Shown one piece after another: positions 4,054 through 42,082 of a DNA stretch of 64,000 nt. Every line of letters starts with the position of its first letter. Position 1 is the stretch's first letter. The stretch comes from Halioglobus sp. (GTDB taxonomy: Bacteria; Pseudomonadota; Gammaproteobacteria; Pseudomonadales; Halieaceae). Both the position numbers and the translations under genes were made by a program. The notes beneath the pieces were generated by a model. The model had not been told where the DNA came from, did no database searches, and saw nothing but the letters and a program-made list of their open reading frames with translations. The DNA lies in the NCBI GenBank assembly GCA_002699145.1, contig PABK01000058.1, forward strand, positions 52,203 through 116,202, given 5' to 3'.

Positions 4054-7000
4054 GTGGCTATTCGTGTCGCCGTCAGGCACAACACCCTGTACGAGTTCGA
4101 TCGTGCGGTGAACATTGCGCCGCATGTGCTGCGCATGCGTCCCGCCCCCCACTGCCGCAACCGCATCTACAGTTACTCCCTGCGCGTGGAGCCCGAGGAG
4201 CACTTCATCAACTGGCAGCAGGACCCCTTCGGCAACTTCCTGGCCAGGCTGGTATTCCCGGAGAAAGCCACCAGCCTGCGCGTGGAGGTCGAGATCATCA
4301 CCGACATGACGGTGATCAACCCCTTCGATTTCTTCGTCGAGGAATACGCCGAGCACTACCCCTTTACCTACGAACCGCAGCTGCGCCAGGAGCTGGGACC
4401 CTACCTGGAGGTCAGTGAAAACGGGCCGCTGCTGCAGGCCTGGCTGGACCAGGTCGACCGGGAAAAGCGCCCGATCAACGACTTCCTGGTGGAGATCAAC
4501 CAGCGCCTGGAACGCGACATCGAGTACAACGTGCGCATGGAGCCGGGCGTGCAGGACTGCGACGAGACCCTGCGCCTGGCGCGCGGCTCCTGCCGCGACA
4601 GCGGCTGGCTGCTGGTGCAGGTGCTGCGCCATCTGGGCCTGGCCGCGCGCTTCTGCTCGGGCTACCTGGTGCAACTGGCCCCGGATGTGAAGTCGCTGGA
4701 GGGCCCCTCGGGGCCGGCGCAGGACTTCACCGACCTGCACGCCTGGTGCGAGGTCTACCTGCCCGGCGCCGGCTGGGTCGGCCTGGACCCCACCTCCGGC
4801 CTGTTCGCCGGCGAGAGCCACATCCCCCTGGCCTGCACCCCCAGCCCGATCTCGGCCGCGCCGATCACCGGCGCCACCGGGCCCTGCGAGGTCACGTTCA
4901 GCTTCAGCAACGAAGTGGAACGCATACACGAGGACCCACGGGTCACCCTGCCCTACAGCGAGGAGCAGTGGTCGGCGATCAACGCCCTGGGCGAGGCGGT
5001 GGACGCCGAGCTGGAACGCGGCGACATGCGCCTGACCATGGGCGGCGAACCGACCTTCGTGTCGATCGACGACATGGACTCGGCGCAGTGGAATATCGAC
5101 GCGCTGGGTGAACACAAGCTCAAGCTGGCCAAGGACCTGCTGATCCGCCTGCGCGAGCGCTTCGCCCCGGGCGGCCTGCTGCACTACGGCCAGGGCAAGT
5201 GGTACCCGGGGGAGCCCACCCCGCGCTGGGCACTGGGCTGCTTCTGGCGCGCCGACGGTGAGCCATTGTGGCAGCAGCCGGAACTGCTGGCGCGGGTGGA
5301 CAGGGACTACGGCCATGACCTGGAGGCGGCACAGCGCTTTATCGGAGCCCTGGCGCACAGGCTGGGCATCGACGGGACATTCAGCCTCCCGGCCTGGGAA
5401 GATCCGCTGTACTACCTGTGGCAAGAGCAGCAGCTGCCCGACAACGTCGACCCGCTAGCGGCCGACCTGAAAGATCCGGCCGAACGCCGCCGCCTGGCGC
5501 GACTGCTGGCGCGCGGGCTGGACCAGCCCAGCGGCTACCTGCTGCCCCTGGAACGCGTGGATGAGGGACCCTGGCACAGCGGACACTGGCGCCTGCGCGG
5601 CGAGCGCGTGCTGCTGATACCCGGGGATTCGCCGATGGGCCTGCGCCTGCCGCTGGACTCCCTGCTGCAGCCCGAACGCGCGACCGACACGGTGCGCCAC
5701 GAACTGGACCCCTTCGCGCCGCGCGGACCGCTGCCCGCGGCCGGGGCGGCCGGGGCGGCAGCCGCGCCCACGCCGCGCGGGCAGGCGCCCGCACGAGACG
5801 CGGAAGACGCCGCCGGAGTCGTGCGCACCACCCTGTGCGTGGAGCCGCGGGAGGGCAAACTGCACGTCTTCCTGCCCCCGGTGACACGCCTGGAGCACTA
5901 TATCGACCTGGTGGCCGCGGTGGAGGCGGTGGCCGCACAGCTGTCACTGCCGGTCGTGGTGGAGGGCTACGAGCCGCCACGGGACCACCGCCTGGTGCGC
6001 CTGCTGGTGACGCCGGACCCGGGGGTCATCGAGGTGAATATCCACCCGGCGGCCAACTGGCGCGACCTGGTGGCGAATACCGAGGGGCTCTACGAAGAGG
6101 CGCGGCTGGCGCGGCTGGGCACCGAGAAATTCATGCTCGACGGCCGCCACTCGGGCACCGGCGGCGGCAACCATGTCACTCTTGGCGCCGCCAGGCCCGA
6201 GGACAGCCCGCTGCTGCGCCGCCCGGACTTGCTGCGCAGCCTGGTCACGTTCTGGCAGCACCACCCGGGCTTGTCCTACCTCTTCTCCGGGCTGTTCCTT
6301 GGCCCCACCAGCCAGGCCCCGCGGGTGGACGAGGGGCGCGACGAGGCGCTGTATGAACTGGAGATCGCCTTCTCCCAGATCGAGTCGGGACACACCCCGG
6401 CGCCCTGGGTGGTGGACCGCCTGTTGCGCAACCTGCTCATCGACATCACCGGCAACACCCACCGCGCCGAGTTCTGTATCGACAAGCTGTACTCACCGGG
6501 TTCTCCCACGGGCCGCCTGGGCATCCTCGAGTTCCGCGGTTTCGAGATGCCGCCCCACGCGCGCATGGCGCTGGTGCAGGTCCTGCTGCTGCGCTGCCTG
6601 GTGGCGCGTTTCTGGCACCAGCCCTACAGCGGCAAACTGGTGCGCTGGGGAACGCTACTGCACGACCGGTTCATGCTGCCGCACTACGTCTGGGCCGATA
6701 TCCGCGATGTCGTCAGCGACCTGAACGAACACGGCTTCCCCTTCCAGCTCGACTGGCTGGCGCCTTTCGAGGAGTTCCGTTTCCCGCATTACGGCAATGT
6801 CGATATCGGCGACATCAACCTCGAGCTGCGCTGGGCGATCGAGCCCTGGCATGTACTGGGCGAAGAGATCAGCAGCTTCGGCACCTCGCGCTACGTCGAC
6901 TCCTCGGTGGAGCGGCTGCAGGTCAAACTGAGCGGGCTGACACCGGAACGCTACGTGCTGTCCTGCAACGGGCGCCGTGTGCCGCTGCGCTCCACCGGGC

Positions 7001-25388: not shown

Positions 25389-25475
25389 GCCCAGGTGGTG
25401 AAATTGGTAGACACGCTAGCTTCAGGTGCTAGTGCTCGCAAGGGCGTGGAGGTTCAAGTCCTCTCCTGGGCACCA
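25389..25475 (+). tRNA. tRNA-Leu (CAG)
   Basis: 87 bases with CCA encoded. Acceptor stem GCCCAGG/CCTGGGC, D-loop GTGGTGAAATTGGTAGAC, anticodon stem CTAGC/GCTAG around loop TTCAGGT with anticodon CAG at 25423-25425, a long variable arm (class II, expected for leucine) and T-arm GAGGTTCAAGTCCTC. The ICE begins immediately after its 3' end. Confidence 0.95.
25449..25475 (+). other. Probable attL core in tRNA 3' end
   Basis: The GC-rich core genome stops at the tRNA 3' end and lower-GC mobile DNA starts directly after it, so the T-arm/acceptor end is the likely recombination site. The exact core cannot be set without the attR copy, which is beyond the window. Confidence 0.55.
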
Positions 25476-26998: not shown

Positions 26999-28069
26999 CT
27001 ACGCCCCCTCGGTCGTAATACCCTGTAAATGTAACTTCAGAAATTTAATGAACAGCGCCTGAACATTTTCAACCGGCAGGTGGTTGGGAATTGAATCGAA
27101 TTTGTGGAACATATTGTCGCGGATTTCCTTTAAGGACTTAAAGGACTTCACATCGTCATTTGCTTCGTCAGGGTCAAGGATCGCAGAGATAACCAAAAAC
27201 TTATCGACGATCCTGTACTTGTCCTTCATAACATCTTTGAGTCGCTCGAAAATCGGCGTCGAAGATTCCGGAGCCCCCTGCTCCATGACCGCAAACCACT
27301 GTCGTTCATAGAGAGACTTGAAGGTCGCATTTACAAAGATTTCAAGGGCGGACCATGCAGAGATAAATGCCGGAAGGGAATCCATACCAGCCTGCAGTGA
27401 TGACAGCAGCAGCCTGACTGGCCGCTCAAGGGCCGGGGCAGCGGCCAGAGGAGCTGCCAAAGCAGCAACTTCTGCCGCAAATTCCTCCCCTATCGGGCTG
27501 GAGACATAAGCGCCAACCCTGCCCGCCTCAAAATTGAACGGATAGATCGGTATCCCTTTATCCGGATCAACCAGATATAGAACGCTACCGATCTCTTCTA
27601 GTTTTTTGTCCGCCTGGGTGGGCAAACCAAGTGCCGCACCAACGAGGACACATTCAATTGAAGCTTTGAACGGTTTTCGCAGCTCGCCTTTTGGCACATC
27701 ATCCAACGAAACTGCAAAGCCGTCCCTATCCTTACGCGTCTTGAAGTCCGGCGGATCGATTTCATCGGAGCCCTCGAATATGAGATACACACCCGCTGAT
27801 TGCTTTTCTTGCCGCTCTGTCTGAATCCGCGCAAGTTCAACTGTGAGCCGCTCCTCTGGCGAGCCGTCCGTACTGTCACCAAACAAACCTCTGAAAAGCA
27901 AAGAGACCAGCGCGTGCGAACGATCAATGTGCTCAAAATATGGATCTGGATTAGCAGTCAGAGAAGCAGTGATGTTCGGATTCTCACCTTCGCAGAGACC
28001 CAATGGATCATCACCCGATAATCCGTTCGCGCCACGGAGCTTGTAAACAGCTACGTATCTTACTTCCAT
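26999..28069 (-). CDS. Hypothetical protein with C-terminal HEPN-like Rx4H motif
   Basis: Protein of 356 residues that I do not recognise as a named family. Residues about 230-356 form a helical region with FISAWSALEIFVN and EIRDNMFHKFD; Arg317 and His322 make an Rx4H motif as in HEPN RNases (Apea-like HEPN proteins look similar). An RNA-cleaving, abortive-infection role is therefore plausible but inferred. The N-terminal 200 residues look alpha/beta and have no known motif. Its ATG overlaps the DUF2779 stop as TAATG, so it is translationally coupled to the defence operon. Confidence 0.7.
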   Translation of the reverse strand: MEVRYVAVYKLRGANGLSGDDPLGLCEGENPNITASLTANPDPYFEHIDRSHALVSLLFRGLFGDSTDGSPEERLTVELARIQTERQEKQSAGVYLIFEGSDEIDPPDFKTRKDRDGFAVSLDDVPKGELRKPFKASIECVLVGAALGLPTQADKKLEEIGSVLYLVDPDKGIPIYPFNFEAGRVGAYVSSPIGEEFAAEVAALAAPLAAAPALERPVRLLLSSLQAGMDSLPAFISAWSALEIFVNATFKSLYERQWFAVMEQGAPESSTPIFERLKDVMKDKYRIVDKFLVISAILDPDEANDDVKSFKSLKEIRDNMFHKFDSIPNHLPVENVQALFIKFLKLHLQGITTEGA

Positions 28070-29478
28070 TATATCGACTCAAGAAAACGATAAATTTCAA
28101 CCATCGCAAAAGTGTCTAGCCTGCAATAGCTCAACAGATCTGATGCAATCTTTTCGGCCTCATCAGGGGGCGCATCGATCATGCGCCGCCACGCTTCCAT
28201 AGCGGAAGCTCCATCCTGCACTACGAGTTCCTTGTAATCGAGGTGCGGACAAACAACGGGAAGCACTTTCTTGATGGATGTCGAACCGTCAAATCGTGCA
28301 TCAACATAATCGGACTTGAACACGTCCTCCAGATCGACCATCCGGTCGTTGAGGTCATTCAAAAAATCGGTCTTGTCCGGGTAACGCTTCGCTAGCTCCC
28401 TGTTTCGGGTTTCCTCGAAGGATTTGTGCCAGGAAACAATACTGCCGGTCGGGCCGATGTCTTCCTGCATCCGCGCGACCAGCCGATCAGGCAATCGCGC
28501 TTCCCTTTCCAGATATTCCTTGTGATCGAGTGAACCATCGGCTTCCAGCACATGCAGGGAATACTGCACCGGAAAATGCTTGTGCGGGCCGGTGCCGTCG
28601 AGATACGGCACAGCGGCGGAATAGGTTTCATAGTCAAAGAAGTACAGCGGGAAGCTGAGCCCTGACAGGAACCTTTGGATAGCCGCTTCGTTGATCTTTG
28701 GTGCATTGTGCTGAAAGGACTCGACCACAAGACGCTGATTGTCAGACAACGTAAATTCGCCCGGAACCTCATCGAGCCCGACAACTTTCATAGCACGAAG
28801 ATCGCGTATCTTGTTTTGTCGTATGAAGGGCAGACTGTAGATCGACGGCGTCGGTACAGTGGGGTTGAACAGTGAAAACGCATCGCAATGATTCGCACGC
28901 GTTTTTTCGGTACAGGAACACCCGTTCATGTCGTGATCGCTTGCCAGAAAAGCCAGCGCGGCGTCGATCTCCGCGCTTGTCTCTGCCAAAACATCATCAA
29001 CCGCCTCGGTAATATCGGCAAAGACGAGCATTGCGCTCGGGTCGATTTCACCGTCTCGAACATATTCCCCGTTCAAGTGAACAAGGAACACGCCGTCGAT
29101 ACTCTGCCCGGCGCGTTCCGCGCAAATCTTCTGAAAGCAGGCATCCTTGAGGTGGTTATGTTTGGCGTCAGTTTTGACGCTGGTCGAAGACTTGACCTCA
29201 TAGAGCGCGGTCGTCCCGCCGCTCATCTTCTCCAAAACGTCCACCCGTGCAAACAGGCCGTCGTCCGTCTCGAACACGGCCTGAAAACTCGCATCCCGAT
29301 CACCAGCGCTCTCAAAAAGCTGCTTAACGTAATGCTCGACTTCATAGCCTTCACGGACGAGCTTCTGCATGAAGGTGGAGAATTCCCCATGCGGATAATG
29401 ATCCGGGGCCGTCTTTAGGAGCCAGAGGGATTTCGGGCAGTTCAGATACTGGATGAAATCGGTTTTAGTGAGTTGCAT
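28069..29478 (-). CDS. DUF2779 protein: Cas4-like nuclease plus RNase H-fold domain
   Basis: 469 residues. The N-terminal part looks like a PD-(D/E)XK nuclease: Asp80 in FARVDVL and Glu94/Lys96 in YEVKSS. Cys14, Cys187, Cys189 and Cys198 could hold an iron-sulphur cluster as in Cas4/AddB. The C-terminal DUF2779 has DEDD-like residues, FFDYETYS (Asp282, Glu284) and YCRLDTFAMVEI. Such proteins should degrade DNA or RNA ends. The ORF track extends upstream; ATG 29478 (MQLTKTDFIQYLNCPKSLWLL) is the family start. It follows herA by 52 bases and overlaps the HEPN-like gene. Confidence 0.8.
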   Translation of the reverse strand: MQLTKTDFIQYLNCPKSLWLLKTAPDHYPHGEFSTFMQKLVREGYEVEHYVKQLFESAGDRDASFQAVFETDDGLFARVDVLEKMSGGTTALYEVKSSTSVKTDAKHNHLKDACFQKICAERAGQSIDGVFLVHLNGEYVRDGEIDPSAMLVFADITEAVDDVLAETSAEIDAALAFLASDHDMNGCSCTEKTRANHCDAFSLFNPTVPTPSIYSLPFIRQNKIRDLRAMKVVGLDEVPGEFTLSDNQRLVVESFQHNAPKINEAAIQRFLSGLSFPLYFFDYETYSAAVPYLDGTGPHKHFPVQYSLHVLEADGSLDHKEYLEREARLPDRLVARMQEDIGPTGSIVSWHKSFEETRNRELAKRYPDKTDFLNDLNDRMVDLEDVFKSDYVDARFDGSTSIKKVLPVVCPHLDYKELVVQDGASAMEAWRRMIDAPPDEAEKIASDLLSYCRLDTFAMVEIYRFLESI

Positions 29479-29530: not shown

Positions 29531-31582
29531 TTAGGGTTTCCAGCAGACGTCTGGGTCCGCAGGAACATACCATATATCTCGAACCTGGGTGTCGTTGCTA
29601 TATGGTGTGGGATTGGCATCACGCACGCGGAACGTTGTTGGGATATTCACCGAGTTGCCGAAGATTAACGCGTGTTGCTTGGGCAAAGACGGTAAGCGCC
29701 TGAGCACTGTTTCGGAAATAAACGGCGTCATCTGTCTAATCTGCGACAAATCATCGGGGTTCTGGATGCGGTGAATAATGAAGTTGTTGCACTGAGAAAG
29801 GACAGTCTTTGAGAGTTCACTTGGTCTTTGGGAAGCCACAATCAGAAAAGCACCGTATTTCCTTCCTTCTTTCGCGATTCTTTGGAACGTGATGCCTGCA
29901 TCAATTGCAAATCGGCTTGGCTTCTCGGAAATATAGCGGTGTGCCTCCTCCAAAAGCAGGTGAACCGGCATGGCATTGCGCGGATCGGCGCGGCGCATGC
30001 GATCAAAGATGAGTCGAGCAACAACCGCTGAAGCAAGTTCTACGATCTCGTCAGAGGCATCATTTAGATCGATTATGCAGATTTGGCGCTCCTTTTTGTA
30101 ACGCTCGTTTTGGACTGCAATCCCGAGCAGGCGATCTACATAATGCGTCGGTTCACGGTCATGGTCTTGTAGATCACCGACATCTGCCCGTAGAAACTCA
30201 TAATCAGGGTTATCTATCACGGACTTGAGACGTGTAACCAACTGCGAGCAGTATTCGCGGATCTGCTTGTTACCGTTGGCTTCCTCATAGAAAAGAGCAA
30301 GATCAAGTGCGGCTTGAAGCCTATCGAATGAAAACGGCATGTTCCCATAGCTTGGCAGAACGGGTTCATCCTTTACATGCCCTTCCAGAAAAATAAGAAG
30401 ATTGTCATAGTTGTTGGATGTATTTGAGTTCTTCCCGTCCTTGAACTGACCAAAGTCGTTGTATAGGCCTTGTGAGACAGTGTTTTTTGATATCTCATTA
30501 GTCGAGAATGTATTTAGAAGGGCAAGAATACGGTCTGCTTTGCTCGGAGTGCTAGCATCGCTGTGCAAGATCGAAAGAATGATCTTGGCTAGGACGTGAT
30601 TGCGGATGATTTTCAGGCTCTCATCGGTGTCGCCGCCTAGGTTCGCTACTTGCGCAGGCGTTTCCTGAAATAGCGTAGTCAAGCCAAGAGCGGTGCGGAG
30701 AGCAGGAATTTGCGACTTTTCGCTAGCTCTCAAAAGCAACGCCCATTCGTCGACACTCATGAACCAGTGGGGAAGCTTGAATCTATCCTTGATCTCCGCG
30801 CCTTGCCTTTTTTGGGAAACGTCAGGAATTGGCATATCCGGCTCTGTCGCCTTGAGGTAGCAGGACCGAATCCAGCCAGGTACATTGTCGAGCGCTCGCC
30901 GATATTCACCGTTCACGTCGAAAATCACGAAGGCTGAACCAAGTGCAGCGAAAGCCTCGGGCTTCATAAACACGGACTGGAAGATTGATGCAACAGTGCA
31001 TGATTTTCCGCTTCCGGTGTTTCCAAGCACGGCAACATGACCGCCAAACAATTCATCAAGCCGTGACTTGACGGGATAGCCTTTGAAGACTGCAGAAGTG
31101 CCAATTTCTATGGTATAGGGAACATTACCCTGTTGGTCTGTACCCCCAGCGTCTTTTTTTGTTTCGAGCTCAGATGGCTGTTCGACATTAAAAATACGAT
31201 CAAGATCTTCATCGCGCGCATAGAGGGCGTCCGCGTAAAGCGGTGGAAACGTGGAGACTCCAAACCGAAAGCTACCACCCTGCATCGGCATCGAACCTAC
31301 AGGCACGACGTCAAGAAATTTGGCGGATGAGGCTTTGTCCATTTCTGTCTGGGACGCGTCCGAGGATGCGCTGTCTTTTTCGCGCAGGCCTATAATCTCA
31401 AGAACAATATGCTCGGCCTGCATTGGGACCATTAAATAGGAACCAAGTGTCGCGACATAGTGGATATCGTCAAAACCGACGATAGTGAAGTTATCGCTGC
31501 CCCTATGCAGCTCAACAATTAACCGGTCAGCCGATACACTGACAATTTTTCCTATAGCGCGGCTAGCATCATCCCTCGCCAT
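29531..31582 (-). CDS. HerA-like DNA translocase ATPase
   Basis: 683 residues of the HerA/DUF87 FtsK-type ATPase family. N-terminal HAS-barrel-like domain (IGKIVSVSADRLIVEL), Walker A LGNTGSGKSC near residues 184-193, Walker B VHLLLEEAHRYI and the sensor stretch ASQRPSELSKTVLSQCNNF. In SIR2-HerA (Nezha) systems a HerA hexamer assembles with SIR2 and senses or processes phage DNA. The start is ATG 31582 (MARDDASRAIGK), which overlaps the SIR2 stop by 14 bases; the ORF track start is 8 codons earlier. Overlap and order support a joint complex. Confidence 0.9.
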   Translation of the reverse strand: MARDDASRAIGKIVSVSADRLIVELHRGSDNFTIVGFDDIHYVATLGSYLMVPMQAEHIVLEIIGLREKDSASSDASQTEMDKASSAKFLDVVPVGSMPMQGGSFRFGVSTFPPLYADALYARDEDLDRIFNVEQPSELETKKDAGGTDQQGNVPYTIEIGTSAVFKGYPVKSRLDELFGGHVAVLGNTGSGKSCTVASIFQSVFMKPEAFAALGSAFVIFDVNGEYRRALDNVPGWIRSCYLKATEPDMPIPDVSQKRQGAEIKDRFKLPHWFMSVDEWALLLRASEKSQIPALRTALGLTTLFQETPAQVANLGGDTDESLKIIRNHVLAKIILSILHSDASTPSKADRILALLNTFSTNEISKNTVSQGLYNDFGQFKDGKNSNTSNNYDNLLIFLEGHVKDEPVLPSYGNMPFSFDRLQAALDLALFYEEANGNKQIREYCSQLVTRLKSVIDNPDYEFLRADVGDLQDHDREPTHYVDRLLGIAVQNERYKKERQICIIDLNDASDEIVELASAVVARLIFDRMRRADPRNAMPVHLLLEEAHRYISEKPSRFAIDAGITFQRIAKEGRKYGAFLIVASQRPSELSKTVLSQCNNFIIHRIQNPDDLSQIRQMTPFISETVLRRLPSLPKQHALIFGNSVNIPTTFRVRDANPTPYSNDTQVRDIWYVPADPDVCWKP

Positions 31583-32849
31583 TTTCTTTGTCCTGCTGCT
31601 TGGCAAGAAGCGTCTGCAATGCTTTTTCTATGGTCTGGTCGATCTCTTGATCAGCACTAGTGGGCAGAAGATGATTGACGATGCCGTCGAAGTAATGAGC
31701 TTTTTGGCCAGCTTGCTTGCCATCGCCCCAGACGAACCAAATGCGGGGATCACCGAGCGCTGAAAGCTCTCGAGTAATGTCGTTCATCTCGGGGTCGATG
31801 AAGGCTACAAGTCTGAAGCCGGGCAAGGCCAGCCCTTGAAAAATGATGTTATTGACGTGCTCGTCTGCGAAGCTGTATCCCATGACAATCAGGACGCTCT
31901 GATCCTGAACAACCTGCCTTTGAAATTCGCGGAACATATCAGAGTACGGCGAACCAAAGCTTGCCGTCTGTTTAGACGGTGTCGGGTAAATCATGACTCG
32001 ATCTGTGGACGGATCAAGCGGGCTATGCGACTCACGAATCGGGAAGAGACCTTTTTCCTCTTCAGTCCAATTGACGGAACCGTGCAACTTGCAGAAGTGT
32101 ACAAATCCTCCGACGGCAGCCCAACGGCGCGAGGTGATATCCAGCTGTTCCGCCAGTGCTAGTCTGTAAGTGGCAGGATTAAACCTCCGCTCTACAGTTC
32201 CTGAAAAGCCGTTAGAGTACGGAATTCCTGAGCGATCCATAGCGCGTTCATTGAAAAGATCGTAATTGGTCGTGAACACCCAAGGCGGTGCGAGACCACG
32301 GGAACGCGTAGCCAGGGACTGGTAAAATCGCCGATATTGCGCGACGACGCTCTCATCTCCATTGGAAAAGGGGCCTGTTGTGCACTTGTACAGGACGAAC
32401 TTTTTGATACCCGCAATAATCTGATCAACCAGGGTAGCAACAGAACTCAGTTCTCCTTTCCCACTTGCTTTGCAGAATTGATGGGCGTTGATAAGAACCT
32501 CCATCATCCGCTCAAGATTGCCCTTCACGTCATCGGCAGAAAGATCAATGCCGAGCTTGTCGTGAAGTTCGTCCTTTTGCGCGGGGCAGACAAAGACCTC
32601 TCCACCATTATCGGCGGGCTCCGCAGCGAGCAACGTCTGAAATTCTTCTGCCAGAAATCTCATAGTTGAAATTCCTAGCTCATCGTCGCCAATTCTCAGC
32701 GAAGAACAACCCGAGCCCAATAAAAAGGACAGATTCTTGGCTCCAAATACTTCCGCCATCTGACGCTGGATGATGTCCGCTTTGTCTTCCCAAGAACTTT
32801 CACCCTTGAGCTTTTGGAATTCGTCGCGGCTTCCCTTTAAAAATTTCAT
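31569..32849 (-). CDS. SIR2-family defence NADase
   Basis: 426 residues. SIR2 fold motifs: FLLGSGCSS at 42-50 (nucleotide-binding loop), VFTTNYD around 191-197 and KLHGSVNW at 254-261, then GYSFADEHVN. Defence SIR2 proteins deplete NAD+ after phage sensing. The catalytic Asn and His (TTN, LHGS) are both present. The C-terminus ends in a Lys/Gln-rich tail. ATG 32849 is 4 bases after the Res stop; the longer ORF would overlap Res. Paired with HerA, it forms a Nezha-like module. Confidence 0.88.
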   Translation of the reverse strand: MKFLKGSRDEFQKLKGESSWEDKADIIQRQMAEVFGAKNLSFLLGSGCSSLRIGDDELGISTMRFLAEEFQTLLAAEPADNGGEVFVCPAQKDELHDKLGIDLSADDVKGNLERMMEVLINAHQFCKASGKGELSSVATLVDQIIAGIKKFVLYKCTTGPFSNGDESVVAQYRRFYQSLATRSRGLAPPWVFTTNYDLFNERAMDRSGIPYSNGFSGTVERRFNPATYRLALAEQLDITSRRWAAVGGFVHFCKLHGSVNWTEEEKGLFPIRESHSPLDPSTDRVMIYPTPSKQTASFGSPYSDMFREFQRQVVQDQSVLIVMGYSFADEHVNNIIFQGLALPGFRLVAFIDPEMNDITRELSALGDPRIWFVWGDGKQAGQKAHYFDGIVNHLLPTSADQEIDQTIEKALQTLLAKQQDKENGEG

Positions 32850-32853
32850 ATCA

Positions 32854-35800
32854 CTACGCCGCCACCCCGTTAACCACATCCATCAGTTTTGAATAATCGG
32901 TAACAACATCATATTTAACTTTGTCAGCATCAATCCGATCATTTAGCTCGGCGAAGAATTTCCGTGCGCACTCAATCTTAGTTTTCTCTATCTCGCGCAA
33001 CTTCATTGAGGACATGGAGCCCTTTGTCTCAGCGACGAAGTAAATATGTTTCACACTACCTTGCTTGAACGATATGGCCCAGTCAGGGTTGTAGTCCCCT
33101 ACTGGCGTCGGGATCAGGAAACCTCGTGGAAGCTTGGCATAGACCACTATTTCAGTGCTGGTGTCTAACTCATCTACGAAATGACGTTCTACATCAGAAT
33201 CCGTTATGCAGTAGTCGTAGATATGATTGTTCAGCTTACCTGTGGCGCGAGAAAAATCCTGTCCGGTCTGCGCAGCGGTGAAAATATCCGCGTCATACCG
33301 GTCCTCGACCTCGTCGTAGCAGAGCTGCTCAATGATGACAGTCGCCTTCTGTTCCTTAATCAGGCGCGACGCTTCGGCAATGAAGTGTTCCGGATTACTA
33401 CGGAACTGATCGAAAACCACAGGCTGAATGCCTGACAGAATTTCGGCGACAGTCTTGCGCGTAAGCTGCACGTTTTCAGCAACTTTGCCAATCAGGTCAT
33501 AGGTGACGTCCGAGTGAACAGCCCCCCCGTACTCCGTAGTGGTCTCGGTGACCTTGAAGCTCTCGCCAGACTTAAGCTGGTCATCAGTTATTGCCGCTGC
33601 TTGCTCGCCCGCATGGACAGTGTACTGTAGCGGCGTAACGCGTAGATGGCTGTCGAGAGCTCCAGTAGCTTTCCTGATCAGTTCATCGGATTCAAAGTCA
33701 ACACGATAGACCGCCTTACGATTGATGCGCGACCAGAGTGCCTGGAATTCCTTTTTGTGGAAATTGTCGTTGAGTGGATTGGTTTTTGGCTTCCGACCGT
33801 CTTCGATCTTCGGCAACTTGCTGTCATCGAAAACGCTGTCAATCAGATCGATGATCTGGTCTGCGTAAGGTTTTAAATCATCAGGGAGGGCGGCGAGCTT
33901 CCCGGCCTCTTTATCTGCGTGATAGCTGTCCGTGATTGCGTCGCTATCGTCAGTGTAGTCGTTCTTGATCAAGTAGCGATAGATCTGCTTCGCCATTTGT
34001 GGCGTGATCTCGACAGTGCCGCCCTCAGTTTCCATCACTTTACCGGTGAAATACTCTTCAGTAGCTTTGCGCGGGCGTGCCGAGAGCGTCTCAGCAATTT
34101 CCGTCTGCAAGCCTTTAACAAAGTCTTTATAACTCTCGCTTGCTACAACCGTTAGGACGTTGATCTCATGAACAACTGCGGGAAGATCCATACGCTCACC
34201 GTGCTGGTCCACGGACAGACGCAACCCCCTGCCGACCTCCTGGCGACGGGAGATGGTGTTGTCGCTATGCTTGAGCATACACATGACAAAAACATTCGGG
34301 TTATCCCACCCTTCCCGCAGCGCAGAGTGGGAGAAAATGAAACGGGTCGGCTCTATGAACGAGAGAAGCCGTTCCTTGTCCTTCAGGATCAGGTCGTAGG
34401 CGTCCACATCGTCGGATAGGCCTGCTTGTTCGCCAGTCTTCTTGGCCGCCGGGTCCTTCAAGCGATTGGTTTTCTTATCAATCGAGAAATAGCCGTTGTG
34501 TGTCGAACCGGGACCAATTCCGGAGAGATACTTGCGGTAATCCTCATTGTCGATTGCCAGCTCTGAGAGGTACTCATCTCTGAGACGGGTGTATTCCTCT
34601 TCGAAGACTCGAGCATAAATGCCCTTTTCATCATCCTGGTCGTAGTCGCGGTACTTGACCACCTCATCGATAAAAAAGAGGGACAGGACCTTGATGCCCT
34701 GGGCGAAGTGCTGCTTTTCTTTGTCTAGGTGCGCCTTGATCGTCTCGCGTATTTGAATACGGCGAATGTCGTTCTCGTTGACGTCTCCTGTTGCTTCCCC
34801 GGCAGATAGCACGACGCCATTGGTGAACTCGACAGTATCGTTGTTGTAGTCGATCTGAGACATAGTGAAACCGCGATACTGATCCAACTCGCCAGATGCG
34901 ACAAAGAGGTCGTCACCAAATTCAAGGCGCTTTAGCAGCCGTTTGATCTCACCCGACTTGAGCTTGACCTCCAACTCGATACGGGCCACGGGCGCTTTCT
35001 TCGAAATATCGATGCCTTCGAGGTACAAATAGGCATTGGTGCCTGCCAAGCCGCGCGTCTGAATGCCGCGCACCGCGATTTTCTTAACGAGCTTCTGGTT
35101 ATAGGCGTCAAGTGCGTCGAGACGATGCACTTTCAGGTGGTTAGTCCTGTGTGTTGCTGAGTACCGTAAGATCATTAGCGGATTGAACTTCGGGAGCGCG
35201 TCCAGTGTGGCCTTGCCTTCCATTTTCTGGGGTTCGTCCAGGATAAGGATGGGCCGGTTACTGCTGATCACGTCAATTGGTCGGCGAGATTGAAAATCAT
35301 CCAGCTCGTCGTAAATCCGTCGGTTGTCGGCTCCGCGTGCATTGAAGGCCTGGATGTTAATGATCATGACGTTGATGCCCGCATCTGAAGAAAAGCCTTC
35401 CAGTTCGTGCAGTCGTTTTGAGTTATAAATGAAAAAGCGGGCTTTCTTGCGGTAGGTCTCGGCGAAATGGTCGCCGGTGATCTGGAAGGATTTGGAGACG
35501 CCTTCCCGAATGGCGATACTCGGCACCATGATGATGAACTTTGACCAGCCGTATCGCTTGTTCATCTCAAAAATTGATTTGATGTAGCAGTAAGTCTTTC
35601 CGGTGCCAGTCTCCATCTCGATATCGAGATTAACTTTGGCTCCTGGCTTGTACGTCCTAGGCTTGGTCTTGCTATTTCCGGACTTATCCACTTCACTGAA
35701 ATCGTCCAAAGTTTTCGAAACTGGCAAATTCTGGTGTTTTTGGACGGTCTGGATGTTGGTGAGCAGTTGGACGTCGGTCAGGCGGATATCTTCGTTCTTG

Positions 35801-35949
35801 AACCCCTCGTCAAACGCACTTGCCTGGGCAGCTTTGCCTGGGTCGATCCGGTAGCGAAGCCCATTACTTTTTGGCTGGCCCGCAAAGCACTCGACCACTG
35901 CATCGACTGCATTTGTCTGATACTCCTGAACTTTAAACTTAAGCTTCAT
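32854..35949 (-). CDS. Type III restriction-like helicase-nuclease (Res)
   Basis: 1031 residues. SF2 helicase: Walker [10 protein letters not shown] near 112-120, DEPQ box ([10 protein letters not shown]) and LRYSATHRT; the helicase C-terminal half has [15 protein letters not shown] and [13 protein letters not shown]-terminal PD-(D/E)XK nuclease is seen in YNPDWAI...FVAETKG near 945-975. This is the layout of type III restriction subunits, which cleave after ATP-dependent movement when two sites lack methylation. Follows mod by 17 bases. In this setting it may act with the SNF2 and DUF4391 proteins rather than as a simple type III enzyme. Confidence 0.9.
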
Positions 35950-35966: not shown

Positions 35967-37859
35967 TTAAATCGACTTAACGTCGGTTGCGGGAGAGAGC
36001 TGGCGGAAGATCTGATCCACGTTGATCTTTACCGCATCTGAGACAAATCCGTTGTCACGGAAGACGACGCGCATCGGTTCGTATTTCGCAAGGTACTTGA
36101 CAAGATCTTCGGTGATCCCCTCCTCGAAGCAAGCAATGAGGTCGTAGGGCTCCTCGTTGACGAAGAATACCGTCTTTCCTCGAATCTCTTCGCTGCGAAT
36201 GGGGAGGGTTAAATCGACGCCCCAGTCCACCAAGACCTGGAACAGCAGGTCTTCCGGATTATCGCGACCGGGTTTGATGTTGTCGACGGCGCCGAGCAAA
36301 TCTTCTTGTTTTAACTTGTTCGGTGTGTAGTAGACGTCCGCCATATTGGATGTGTCAATCTTCAGAACGCGAAAACCGACGTCGTTATTCCAATCCTCGT
36401 GGCTTGAACCGCCTAGTACATTTTTGCCCGCGCGGCGGACACGTTCCTTGGATAGCTCAGAGATAGTGTTGAACCCTGCTTTTTTTGCTTCAGATTTTTC
36501 GTTTACCGGCTCAGGCGACTGAACCATTACAAATCGCCTATTCCCACCGTCGAGTGCATTGGACTTAAAAACACTATGTGCAGTCGTCGAAGAGCCTGCG
36601 AAGAAATCTAAAACAATGTCATGGTCGTTTCTCCGGGTGCATATCTCAAGCAACCTACCTATCAACTTGGTTGGTTTTGGGGTGTCAAATACTTTTGGTT
36701 TTTCAAACAAGGAAAGAAGTTCATCAGATGCATCTTCGTTGCTACCAACTTCTTCGTATCCCCAGTAGGAAGGAACCGTTTGCCCCTCTACTTCAGAAAG
36801 GAAGCGCTTAATTCGAGGGACGTTGTCGCCTGATCCACCAAACCAAATCCGATTATCGTTCTTAAGTTCTATAAATGTCTTTTCGATCAGGCCCCAAGAG
36901 CGACCTTCGGGCGGCCCAATGACTCTCCCGCTAGGCAATTCCACATCGAAAAACTGGTCCTTTGTCGCTCGACCAATCATTCCAGTCATGTCAACAGACG
37001 CCCAAGGACCTCTTGGATCATTATCAGGATTAGTAAACGATGCTTTCCTTTTCTCGCTTAAGGCCATTTTCCCAATAGCCTTCTTAGGTTGTTCAGAGTT
37101 CTTTACGTAGCAAAGCAAATAGTCATGCACACTACCAATCGTAGATCGGGCATCAGGGGATGCTTTCTTTCTCCATACCACCGCGGCCAGAAAGCTATTT
37201 TCTCCAAATATTTCGTCTACTACTTTTTTCAGATTATCGCGTTCATGGTCATCTGTAGATATAAACAAAGCACCGTCATCGGAAAGTAGGTTTCTAGCCA
37301 ACCTAATTCGGGCAGCAATCATTGAGAGCCAATCGGAGTGAAAACGCCCATTGCTCTCTGTGTTTGAAATTAGGTTATTCCCAAGTTCATCTTGTTGATT
37401 CGATTTAATGAGAAAACTGAGGTTGTCCTCAGTAAAATCATCGTCATACACAAAGTCACTGCCAGTGTTATAAGGTGGGTCGATATAGATCAACTTCACT
37501 TTGCCAAGATAGGTCTCCTGAAGCAGTTTGAGTGCTTCAAGGTTGTCTCCCTCAATGAAGAGATTTTTTGTCGTATCGAAATTGACGCTTTCTTCCCTAC
37601 ACGGACGGAGCGTTTTAGCGATAGGAGCATTGGCGGCGAGAAGCGCTTCTCGCTTGCCGGGCCAATTCAGTTGATAACGTTCTTTTGGGCCTTCGATAAT
37701 ATGGTCTGAAAGCTCCTGGCGTAGTTGATCAAAATCGATGGCGAGGCGTAGGTCACCGTTTTCGTCGATTGCCTCCGTCACACAGCCCGGGAACAACTCG
37801 CGGATTTTGACGATGTTATCGTCTGTGAGGTTAGGGCTGTGCATTTTTAGCTTTTCCAT
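35967..37859 (-). CDS. Type III-like adenine DNA methyltransferase (Mod)
   Basis: 630 residues. Amino-methyltransferase motif [14 protein letters not shown] near 120-131 precedes motif I-type [12 protein letters not shown] near 417, the beta-class order of type III Mod proteins; the DPPY form fits N6-adenine. It would mark host DNA and give Res its target sequence. Start taken at ATG 37859 ([15 protein letters not shown]), 16 bases after the DUF4391 stop; the ORF track start 15 codons earlier overlaps DUF4391. Recognition sequence cannot be read from the protein. Confidence 0.9.
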
Positions 37860-37875
37860 CTCGATTTTGGCCTCT

Positions 37876-38556
37876 TCATTCCTTGGCTGAAGCTGCGCCG
37901 CCAAGGCGTTTCAGTTCTTTGGTTACGTCACGTAGCTCTGCGTTGATCGCAACGCGCTTGTTGAATTGTTTCTCTTTAGCCAGGCGCGCCTTGATGCGCT
38001 CGGCTTCACGCTGTTTAGCTCGTATCGTCTCCATCCGCAGAACGCGAGAAGCGATAGGCTCATCTGATTTTTTCGTTGCCGGAAGCAGAGGGCGCAATAA
38101 CGCCTCATAAAGACTATTGAGATTGAGGGCCTGGGGAAGAGGTTGTCTGGGGCTATCCTCAGCTTCCCAGTCGGTGCCGAAATACTCACTTACTACCCAT
38201 TTTGTGCTGTCCGCTTCGCTAGGACGCTTGTAGGCCGCTATGATTTTCCGTTTCCCGGCGTGGGTAAGCTCGAAGATAATCGGAAACGGTATCGCCTTGT
38301 CGATCGCGCGGAGAACCTCTTCGCTAATCTTGGAGGTTCGCAGGTTGATCTTGAAGACCTGTATCTCGGATACGGATTTCGTTGCGCCAAGGTTAATCGT
38401 CTCTGGCGCGAGCTTGTACTGCCAGATGATCTGGTCGACCTGGTCAACGAAAAGCTGCTTCAGCTTCGCCCCGGCACTGGCGTGGGCATAAATCTTGCTC
38501 TTCGGTAGAACCCTTCCGAACAAGGCCGCTTTGGGGTATTCGAAGAAGACGGTCAT
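37876..38556 (-). CDS. DUF4391 family protein
   Basis: 226 residues. The pattern MTVFFEYPKAALFGRVLPKSKIYAHA at the N-terminus and the INLGAT...EIQVFKINLR segment are typical of DUF4391, a family found beside type III-like methyltransferases and SNF2 helicases. The last 50 residues form a charged coiled coil (KQREAERIKARLAKEKQF). No catalytic motif is evident; an adaptor between the helicase and Mod is a reasonable guess. Its ATG overlaps the helicase stop as ATGA. Confidence 0.82.
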   Translation of the reverse strand: MTVFFEYPKAALFGRVLPKSKIYAHASAGAKLKQLFVDQVDQIIWQYKLAPETINLGATKSVSEIQVFKINLRTSKISEEVLRAIDKAIPFPIIFELTHAGKRKIIAAYKRPSEADSTKWVVSEYFGTDWEAEDSPRQPLPQALNLNSLYEALLRPLLPATKKSDEPIASRVLRMETIRAKQREAERIKARLAKEKQFNKRVAINAELRDVTKELKRLGGAASAKE

Positions 38557-41500
38557 GAACCAGCCTCCTCGATTACCAAGAACGCTACAAGCTCGAAGTC
38601 GTCGAGCCCCACAATGGTGTTGACCAGCGCCGTTGTGCGACCTCCAGAGAACAGGCTGTCGAGATCCTTCTCTTCCTTGACGTCAATCATTGACCGAATT
38701 GCGGAGCTGAGTAGCTCCGACTGTCGGTTCATCTTCCGGCCATCTTCGGTGCGCTCGTTGAACAGGCGGCAAACGGCTTGTATCGGCTCGGATTGACCCT
38801 TGCAGCTTGTCCGCACCAAATCCAGTAGGCGCTTCACCTCCGTATGATCAGCGATGATCTCTCCATCTGCGGAGATGTAGACGAGGTAATAAGGGTGCAG
38901 GCGGTTTTGCTGGTTTACATTCACGCTATCGTGGATGTTTTTAAGGGCAAAGATGATGCCCGGCGGCAGGCCTTTGTCAGGGTCGGCGGGCACGACGGCG
39001 TGTAACCCATTTGGCACACGCTCAAGATCGCCATTCTCCTTAACGTAGTTAAGGAGGTCCATGCGGAAATCATTGAGACCCAAATCGGTAATCGAAACAC
39101 CGGTCTTCACGTCCTCCAGTTCGATGACCTCTTCCTGGAGGCGCTTGAGCTGTTCCTTCCTGTAGGCAATTTCGCTGCTCTTGGCGGTCAGAACATTATC
39201 ATCGCCGGTTGCCGTTACGTCGGCGATCATCATCCGGTTTTCGACGCGCTCCTTCAGATTGATGTATTCATCAAGCGAAATATCAGGCCAGTAATTGACG
39301 AGCTGGATTTGCGCGTTTGGTGAGCCGATACGGTCGATCCGCCCGAAACGCTGGATAATCCGTACCGGGTTCCAATGAATGTCGTAGTTAACCAGATAGT
39401 CGCAGTCCTGAAGGTTCTGTCCTTCCGAAATGCAGTCTGTTCCAATCAGAATGTCGATCTCATTGTCTTCGTTCGGAAGGATCAGGTGCTTTTCCTTCGA
39501 GCGCGGCGAGAACAGTGTGAGAATGGACTGGAAGTCATAGGTCTTCTTCAGAGTGGTTTTGGGCGCGTCAGAGCCAGTGACCTTCGCGCAATGCAGGCCT
39601 TTGGTCTTGAGGTTCTCATTGGCCAGGTTGGCGTAAAGGTAGTTCGCCGTATCAGCGAAGGCGGTGAAGATCAGGACTTTTCGATTACCACTGTTGATGG
39701 GATTCGCGACCTTCCCGCTGATGTGTTCTTTGAGGTGCTGAAGCTTGGCGTCATCATCGGGACGAATCATATCCATCGAGGCCAAGAGTGCATCGATGAT
39801 TGCCAGGTCGCCTTTCAGTTCGTGCTGCCAGGACTGAACATCCATGTCTGCCAGGCTGATCTGGACCTTTTTACCAACGGTAAATTCACCTAATCCGGCC
39901 AGGTCGTCATCATCCGGGTCAAATGCGGACGCATTGGCTGTGTAATCCGAGACCTGTAACGTACCCCCGGATCGCTCAAAGTCCGCGATTGCGTCGAGCG
40001 TGCCGGTGAGGTTCTGTTTAAGCGACCCCAATGTGAGACGGAAGGCCTCCACTGAGCTTTCCAGGCGCTTAAGCAGGTTTGTAGTCATGAGCGCTTGCAG
40101 GCTGCGTTCCCGGTCTACTTGCTTGAGGCGACCTCTGCCGCCGCCGACTTCGGTATCGTAAAGAGACTCGTACTTCGCAACCCGGCTCGGAAGGATGTAG
40201 CTGAGTGGCGCATAGACTGCCAACTTGAGCAACGAGAGCTGGCCGACAATCTCATTGAGATCCATTACATCGGTGCGTGTTGTCAGCGGGCAATGAAAGG
40301 AAAGCGGCTTCCGGCGCTCTGGAAATTTCCCGATATCGGCTGTGTCGTAGAAGGTCTCGATGTGTTTTCGCGAGCGAGCGATAGTCACGCTGTCGAGAAG
40401 CTCGAAGAAATCGAAATCCAGCATCTTCAGGATTGAGGAAGCTGTCCGCTCTTCCGGGGGCAGCTTCGACCAGGTGTTAAAGGCCGTTTGGGCGCGCCGG
40501 AATATCTCCTCAACACTGGAGGCGATTTTCAGCTTTTCGCTGAGGGCTTCTGACTCTCCCTCATAGGCGAGGGCAAGCTGGTTCCGAAGGTCATTGAACC
40601 GGTTGTTGACCGGGGTGGCCGACAACATCAGGACCTTTGTCTTCACACCCTCACGGATGACCTGGTTCATCAACTTCTGATAACGAGTCTCTTTGTCTTT
40701 GTAGATATCGTTGTTGCGGAAATTATGAGACTCGTCGATCACGACCAGATCGTAGTTACCCCAGTTAACGCGGTTTAAGGGGATGCCGAAGGAGTCGCCG
40801 CTGGTGCGTGACAGATCGGTGTGGCAAAGAACATCGTAGTTGAACCGGTCTTTGGCAAAGAGGTTCGTTTTCAGATTTGTATTGTAGTTCAGCCAGTTAT
40901 CCGCGAGCTTCTTCGGGCATAAGACAAGGACCGCCCGGTTGCGAAGCTCGTAGTATTTAATAACCGCTAACGCCGTGAATGTTTTTCCGAGGCCGACGCT
41001 GTCGGCGAGAATGCAACCATTGTAGGTTTCCAGCTTGTTTATGATGCCGGTCGCGGCGTCACGCTGAAAGTTGAATAGCTTTTTCCAGACCTCGCTCTCC
41101 AGATAGCCCGTCCTGTCATTGGGCAAGACATCTTCATCAACCTCCTCCAGGAACTCGCTGAAGATGTTGTAGAGGATCAAGAAGTAGATCTTTTCCGGGG
41201 AGTTCTCCTGGTAGACAGACTCAATGTGGCTGCATATTGCTTCGGTGACATCCTCTAACTTATCTGGATCGGCCCAGATTTGGTTAAAGAGGTCGAGGTA
41301 GGTATTGGTGTAAGGTGCGCCGTCGAAGCGATTGACGATGTTGGAGACTGCATCACCTTTCTGGAGACCGAGATCAACTGCGGTAAAACCGTTTACCGGC
41401 ATATAGGCGATTTGTTCTGAGCCATTCTCCATACAAATGAACTGCTGCATCGGTGCCTTTGTTTTATTGGAATGGAACGTCGCTTTCTTGCGTATCCAGG

Positions 41501-41828
41501 CTGCACATTCCCGAGCGATCGCCTTTTGGGTCAGCTTATTGCGTAGTTGAATTTCGAACTCTGATCCGTACAGGCTTCTTTCACGCTGAGTTTTTGGAAT
41601 GAAGAACTCGCGGCGTTCTTTCTTGAAGCGATCGGTTGCGCCTTCGGGAACAAATGTGGGAGCGGTAAAAATGAATTGAATGCTGTCGATGTTCTCCAGT
41701 TCTTTTTTCAGTGATTCAAATGCATAGATAGAAAAGCAGGACGCGGCGATCTTCAATTTCGTTTGCGGTCGGATAGACGCTTTAAGATCGTCACCGAGCA
41801 AATAATTAATATTGTCGATTACTTGCAT
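38553..41828 (-). CDS. SNF2/RapA-type helicase with N-terminal PLD-like region
   Basis: 1091 residues. Walker A LADSVGLGKTF near 275-285, DESHNFRN box, LSATPVNNRFNDLRNQL, and the C-terminal helicase motifs GTDCISEGQNLQ and RIIQRFGRIDRIGSPN near 830. The first 180 residues (LKIAASCFSIYAFESLKKEL) resemble the phospholipase D-like domain attached to many defence helicases, but I do not see an intact HxK(x)4D motif, so it may be inactive. Likely an ATP-dependent DNA translocase. First large gene of the operon, 59 bases after the HTH gene. Confidence 0.88.
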   Translation of the reverse strand: MQVIDNINYLLGDDLKASIRPQTKLKIAASCFSIYAFESLKKELENIDSIQFIFTAPTFVPEGATDRFKKERREFFIPKTQRERSLYGSEFEIQLRNKLTQKAIARECAAWIRKKATFHSNKTKAPMQQFICMENGSEQIAYMPVNGFTAVDLGLQKGDAVSNIVNRFDGAPYTNTYLDLFNQIWADPDKLEDVTEAICSHIESVYQENSPEKIYFLILYNIFSEFLEEVDEDVLPNDRTGYLESEVWKKLFNFQRDAATGIINKLETYNGCILADSVGLGKTFTALAVIKYYELRNRAVLVLCPKKLADNWLNYNTNLKTNLFAKDRFNYDVLCHTDLSRTSGDSFGIPLNRVNWGNYDLVVIDESHNFRNNDIYKDKETRYQKLMNQVIREGVKTKVLMLSATPVNNRFNDLRNQLALAYEGESEALSEKLKIASSVEEIFRRAQTAFNTWSKLPPEERTASSILKMLDFDFFELLDSVTIARSRKHIETFYDTADIGKFPERRKPLSFHCPLTTRTDVMDLNEIVGQLSLLKLAVYAPLSYILPSRVAKYESLYDTEVGGGRGRLKQVDRERSLQALMTTNLLKRLESSVEAFRLTLGSLKQNLTGTLDAIADFERSGGTLQVSDYTANASAFDPDDDDLAGLGEFTVGKKVQISLADMDVQSWQHELKGDLAIIDALLASMDMIRPDDDAKLQHLKEHISGKVANPINSGNRKVLIFTAFADTANYLYANLANENLKTKGLHCAKVTGSDAPKTTLKKTYDFQSILTLFSPRSKEKHLILPNEDNEIDILIGTDCISEGQNLQDCDYLVNYDIHWNPVRIIQRFGRIDRIGSPNAQIQLVNYWPDISLDEYINLKERVENRMMIADVTATGDDNVLTAKSSEIAYRKEQLKRLQEEVIELEDVKTGVSITDLGLNDFRMDLLNYVKENGDLERVPNGLHAVVPADPDKGLPPGIIFALKNIHDSVNVNQQNRLHPYYLVYISADGEIIADHTEVKRLLDLVRTSCKGQSEPIQAVCRLFNERTEDGRKMNRQSELLSSAIRSMIDVKEEKDLDSLFSGGRTTALVNTIVGLDDFELVAFLVIEEAGS

Positions 41829-41887: not shown

Positions 41888-42082
41888 CTAACTACCGCGA
41901 TCCTGCTTTCTCAGTTTTTTCTGGTTTTCTATCCAGACGGCTACGTCTTCTTTTTTAAATCGCCAACTGCCTCCAACCTTAAAACCAGGCAATTTTCCCT
42001 CAGCCGCTAGCCTGTAAGCCGTTTTTTCAGCCAATTTCAGGTACTCGGCAACTTCTTTTAAGGTCATGATCTCGTCGTTCAT
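41888..42082 (-). CDS. Small HTH protein, excisionase/AlpA-like
   Basis: 64 residues, almost entirely one MerR-like/HTH_17 DNA-binding domain: MTLKEVAEYLKLAEKTAYRLAAEGKLPGFKVGGSWRFKKEDVAVWI. Such proteins act as excisionases or transcription regulators. At the head of the defence operon it most likely controls the operon; given its ICE setting, an excision role cannot be excluded. The start is ATG 42082 with GGGTGGG upstream; the longer ORF is not credible. Confidence 0.82.
   Translation of the reverse strand: MNDEIMTLKEVAEYLKLAEKTAYRLAAEGKLPGFKVGGSWRFKKEDVAVWIENQKKLRKQDRGS

Follow-up and report, generated by a model that had tools for sequence, protein, structure and literature searches.

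The SIR2 and HerA genes of the 64,000-nucleotide stretch of Halioglobus sp. DNA analyzed here (the window) quite probably form a self-contained abortive-infection cassette, placed in a cargo slot at the 3' end of a type III restriction operon. The cassette would be expressed together with this operon and would not depend on it for its function. The comparison of homologous loci indicates that SIR2-HerA is a portable cassette joined to several defense modules and not a fixed partner of the type III system.

The first gene of the cassette (31569..32849, minus strand) encodes a predicted NADase effector of the SIR2 family (426 aa; Pfam SIR2_2), and the second (29531..31582, minus strand) encodes HerA, by homology an ATPase/translocase of 683 aa. 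Both proteins matched the corresponding PADLOC profiles over their full length (PDLC04084, E = 1e−170 for SIR2; PDLC04102, E = 1.7e−284 for HerA). The motifs that a preliminary description had reported as intact were confirmed: SIR2 carries the catalytic motifs TTNYD (T193 to D197) and LHGS (L255 to S258), with N195 and H256 invariant among 45 SIR2 relatives, and HerA carries a Walker A motif (GNTGSGKS, residues 187 to 194). In 77 HerA sequences, Walker A and B do not vary, and neither do EEAHRY and KEGRKYG. The structure model of SIR2 was of middling confidence (pLDDT of 74.5), and its best 39 Foldseek matches were all entries of SIR2-HerA complexes or SIR2 dodecamers (E values of 7e−20 to 9e−8), whereas other SIR2 defense proteins (ThsA, DSR2, and Kom) gave far weaker matches. 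The window HerA also matched HerA structures in the PDB, including 8j4u. The adjacency of the two genes, their profile matches, the intact NADase and Walker residues, and the modeled SIR2 fold place the pair in the SIR2-HerA (Nezha) kind, in the broad sense of PADLOC, as first proposed.

Neither protein reached the cut-off of the NCBIfam equivalog for the Escherichia coli type (127 versus 500 bits for SIR2_antiphage and 217 versus 800 bits for HerA_antiphage), which points to a different subgroup. Since the pair is well below these cut-offs, the details of the E. coli mechanism may not transfer to it. The pN/pS ratios of SIR2 and HerA relative to their relatives were 0.10 to 0.14, implying that purifying constraint acts on both genes. 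A search of the genome at E ≤ 1e−5 revealed no second SIR2 of the same kind.

The pair belongs to an operon-like run of minus-strand genes in the order HTH_17, SNF2, DUF4391, Mod, Res, SIR2, HerA, and DUF2779. Res (32854..35949) is a helicase-endonuclease of 1031 aa (PADLOC PDLC03647, 1124 bits; Pfam RE_endonuc and ResIII), and the adjacent Mod (35967..37904) is a DNA methyltransferase with a DPPY motif (PADLOC MTase_III PDLC03634, 752 bits; Pfam N6_N4_Mtase). The two genes, one with an N6/N4 methylase domain and the other with helicase and endonuclease domains, constitute a type III restriction-modification (R-M) system. They are preceded by genes encoding a DUF4391 protein (37876..38556; Pfam PF14335, E = 5e−60) and an SNF2-family helicase (38553..41828; Pfam SNF2-rel_dom and Helicase_C; PADLOC C3a139, 427 bits), and we call these four genes the chassis. 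The model of the DUF4391 protein was confident (pLDDT of 88.6) and had no PDB match at E ≤ 0.001, so that its fold is possibly undescribed; the model thus pointed to no function that would link chassis and cargo, and this lead was dropped. A literature search on DUF4391 found nothing apparently related. A small DNA-binding protein upstream of SNF2 (41888..42082; Pfam HTH_17, E = 1e−17; presumed start at MNDEIM) is a candidate regulator. Among the 39 chassis loci that could be tested, 11 have a homolog of it before SNF2, and the HTH gene was therefore rejected as a constant, required part of the chassis.

On the other side of the cassette, 52 nt past HerA, lies a gene encoding a DUF2779 protein with a Cas4-like N terminus (28069..29478, minus strand; Pfam DUF2779, E = 7.5e−36; weak Cas4 matches), which we regard as further cargo. 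A 75% identical copy follows HerA in one relative, L049, and no such gene was found near SIR2-HerA in the other 79 of the 80 relatives described below. The block from Mod to DUF2779 in L049, a metagenome-assembled genome of Opitutaceae, is 79% identical to that of the window. In this locus, the chassis is cut within DUF4391 (4300 to 4420) and SNF2 is missing, with a flank resembling an inserted mobile element. Because conjugation genes (TraG, TraU, TraC, and TraD-like) are found to the right of the run, at 42.7 to 60.4 kb of the window, and a tRNA-Leu predicted by ARAGORN flanks it to the left (25389..25475, plus strand), the whole run appears to be cargo of an integrated conjugative element. 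A copy of the 3' end of the tRNA-Leu with one mismatch, on another contig (G000:C11:4017-4041), may represent either the distal attachment site of the element or a further tRNA.

The junctions within the run are as tight, to the base, as the preliminary description had stated. On the minus strand, the res stop codon (32856 to 32854) and the SIR2 ATG (32849 to 32847) are separated by 4 nt (32850..32853), and SIR2, whose stop codon ends at 31569, overlaps HerA by 14 nt, with the HerA ATG at 31582 and the end of its stop codon at 29531. An independent promoter between res and SIR2 would have spoken against their coupling, and the 4-nt gap leaves no room for one. At this boundary, a scan for promoters returned no site on the minus strand; overall, it gave 8 promoter-like sites, fewer than the 11.6 found in shuffled sequences. 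The tightness alone, from which selection for joint expression had been deduced, is unremarkable, since junctions of −30 to +10 nt occur in 38% of the neighboring co-directional ORF pairs of the 80 relative loci. The retention of the junction in diverged relatives (+4 nt in the window, +1 in L049, and −4 in L019), in which the res-SIR2-HerA DNA is 74 to 79% identical, is better evidence and indicates that shared expression has been kept.

A scan of GTDB genomes provided 80 SIR2-HerA relatives with their flanks. HerA adjoined SIR2 downstream in all 80 of them, and the genes upstream of SIR2 varied. The same type III chassis was found in five loci (L019, L049, L061, L062, and L091), and another type III-like Mod/Res pair was found in L033. 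In L018 and L021, SIR2 was preceded by an MmeI-type IIG module whose last gene is of the GIY-YIG type, and the junction was just as tight. AbiE toxin-antitoxin genes were located directly upstream in about 22 loci (e.g., L034, 8341 to 9943), and a second AbiE family in L048; AbiE is thus a commoner upstream partner of SIR2-HerA than restriction genes. Other upstream genes encoded Fic (L022 and L029), a PLD protein resembling MkoB (L042), and a GmrSD-type protein (L063), and some relatives had no co-directional upstream gene. We also observed a DEDDh exonuclease gene (cluster c2) in 33 loci, usually directly after HerA (e.g., L042, 13200 to 14180) and before SIR2 in L084, L090, and L096, which could be a third component of SIR2-HerA.

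The DNA alignments locate the limits of the cassette with precision. In relatives with other upstream modules, homology to the window sets in at the start codon of SIR2 (position 0 in L018, L020, and L030 and positions 3 to 4 in L021) and runs out close to the stop codon of HerA. Conversely, when the window was aligned with L202, whose Res groups with that of the window and is followed by other cargo, the homology stopped no more than 18 nt from the end of res, so that the 4-nt junction is a module boundary. A second SIR2-HerA clade, with a SIR2 about 50% identical to that of the window, includes near-copies (DNA 87 to 89% identical; SIR2 in one cluster at ≥95% linkage) placed after Res in L061 and L091 and after AbiE in L085, L070, and L072, and the homology between the Res- and AbiE-linked copies again starts approximately at the SIR2 start. 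In L030, where the upstream module has been lost, a 36-nt relic remains of the end of the GIY-YIG gene seen upstream of SIR2 in L018 and L021 (alignment score of 47, compared with a maximum of 22 in shuffled sequences).

The phylogenies of the two units show that they were reshuffled in evolution. In the Res tree, the bearers of SIR2-HerA fall in two separate clades, forcing at least two changes, and their nearest Res relatives have other 3' cargo: a run including a Schlafen-type gene in L202, DUF4268 in L166, and a gene of the DUF4357 cluster in L190. In the SIR2 tree, the type III label must have changed three times or more. In L019, SIR2 groups with those of L021 and L030, and Res groups with that of the window. 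According to these trees, SIR2-HerA and the chassis became associated separately at least twice.

The relatives of Res in plasmids, genomes, and viral contigs, dereplicated to 49 loci, revealed that the chassis accepts cargo at three positions. Cargo was present in 19 of the 29 loci with all three slots resolved, a rough frequency since the set was sampled, ORFs were called by a simple method, and the dereplicated loci with SIR2, four in all, were the window and finds of the SIR2 search. Slot 1, between DUF4391 and Mod, contained OLD, DUF2130, UvrD-like, GmrSD, or KilA-N genes; slot 2, between Mod and Res, contained Schlafen AlbA_2, RhuM (PDC-S05), HEC-01A/B, GmrSD, Fic, ORF6N, or Bro-N; and slot 3, after Res, contained SIR2-HerA, GajA with a UvrD helicase, Ppl with an SbcD-like gene, PDC-S06, McrBC, DUF4357, or DUF4268. 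In many chassis loci, the other defense genes in slot 3 were within 0 to 80 nt. In slot 3 of L129 (11224 to 16402), the genes after PDC-S06 are one that weakly matches the Cap4 nuclease and one for a further HerA, which together make a second type of HerA effector pair located behind Res. None of the 42 dereplicated loci found through Res and with a resolved slot 3 had SIR2-HerA, suggesting that the chassis is usually without it. The chassis therefore occurs without SIR2-HerA, and its slot 3 can hold other cargo instead, which is the pattern of embedded cargo. Copies of the chassis were few in E. coli (10 of 5,426 genomes), with no cargo in either of the two loci examined (L130 and L184), and the search for DUF4391 in viral contigs gave only 2 loci.

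These observations can be assembled into a model in which the cassette, delimited by the start codon of SIR2 and the stop codon of HerA, is carried in the HTH-SNF2-DUF4391-Mod-Res operon of a conjugative element. To judge by homologous systems, the SIR2 and HerA proteins would form a large complex which, once triggered during phage infection, would hydrolyze NAD+ by means of N195 and H256 and thereby stop the infection. Owing to the junction between the res stop and the SIR2 start, the two genes would be transcribed together and probably also coupled in translation, and expression of the restriction genes would always entail that of SIR2-HerA. Restriction would then act as the first line of defense and NAD depletion as the second. 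The upstream partner is interchangeable, the same cassette occurring behind other modules, even if the local R-M system may still help SIR2-HerA functionally.

The pair and the type III system might instead be one obligate unit, with SIR2-HerA firing, for example, in response to Res-generated DNA ends or to inhibition of Mod/Res by the phage. The retention of the tight junction by three diverged relatives and an association that arose at least twice are in line with such a unit, as is the number of adjacencies: a crude calculation, which takes a genome to have 4,000 genes, counts 13 chassis in 399 genomes, and ignores the clustering of defense genes in islands, predicts about 0.0007 chance adjacencies between chassis and SIR2-HerA, compared with the 5 seen in 80 relatives. 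Yet the pair is also found behind unrelated modules or alone, most chassis lack it, and, according to an extract of PMC11514479, homologous sir2/herA genes cloned without the neighboring R/M genes conferred phage resistance on lactococcal and streptococcal hosts; we thus regard obligate coupling as improbable. The retained junction and the excess over chance adjacency point to a link that is real and recurrent, in agreement with the expected correlation with restriction genes in other genomes, but facultative. The coupling to Res first proposed is therefore upheld as a direct link with a conserved tight junction and not as a specific one, given the MmeI/IIG and AbiE partners elsewhere.

At the other extreme, two defense systems might simply have landed together in a defense island, with a short gap of no regulatory meaning. 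Defense genes generally cluster in islands and equally tight junctions are common, but boundaries precise to the start codon, a junction kept at about 74 to 79% DNA identity, and a slot 3 filled by other defense genes at short distances in many loci make this unlikely. It is more doubtful still that SIR2-HerA is mainly a DNA-processing or nuclease machine for which NAD hydrolysis is secondary, since the NADase-site residues are invariant and, in Nezha of Vibrio cholerae, mutation of the active site abolished immunity (PMC11559045). The co-expressed, functionally independent cassette remains our preferred reading, to which the loss of V. cholerae immunity upon this mutation or upon deletion of herA (PMC11559045) and the protection by the cloned sir2/herA genes lend support. 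We can also conceive, as a long shot, that SNF2-DUF4391-Mod-Res is a dedicated docking chassis whose fixed slots recruit start-to-stop effector cassettes, with DUF4391/SNF2 as the common interface and the activity or failure of restriction gating the effector.

The locus is a clean natural experiment on how defense operons are assembled: the same cassette is placed behind unrelated modules, the switch point being its start codon, and one restriction operon takes many cargoes. It also offers a testable case of whether selection maintains co-expression with R-M rather than a biochemical partnership.

SIR2-HerA is already known, as is the embedding of defense genes in R-M operons, e.g., DarTG2 in a type I R-M island (PMC12255303), PrrC in type I R-M loci (PMC12629846), and the Hma-embedded candidates and PDCs (Payne et al. 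2021; preprint 10.1101/2024.01.29.577857), as cited in PMC12255303 and PMC12629846. In the literature searched, nothing was found on the SNF2-DUF4391 type III operon as a chassis that accepts cargo, but the preprint may cover it. Compared with the described SIR2-HerA/Nezha systems (E. coli 8J4U, 8SU9, and 8UAE; V. cholerae A103; 8WLD; 8YHX), the window has the same order of SIR2 and HerA, fold, catalytic residues, and ATPase motifs, but its SIR2 is only about 16 to 24% identical to the solved SIR2 chains in the fold alignments, and the pair represents a separate subgroup, located behind a type III restriction operon. As in the embedded systems, gaps of a restriction operon hold defense cargo that varies among relatives; here, the host operon is the type III SNF2-DUF4391-Mod-Res chassis and SIR2-HerA is at its 3' end, not between R-M genes. 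A further parallel is the defense island of Streptococcus thermophilus CR3, where, in the same extract of PMC11514479, a SIR2/HerA pair is situated between or downstream of R/M systems and is active when cloned alone. The window shares the adjacency to R/M genes with this island and differs from it in the hosts, in the SIR2-HerA lineage, and in junctions precise to the start codon, a feature not described in that extract.
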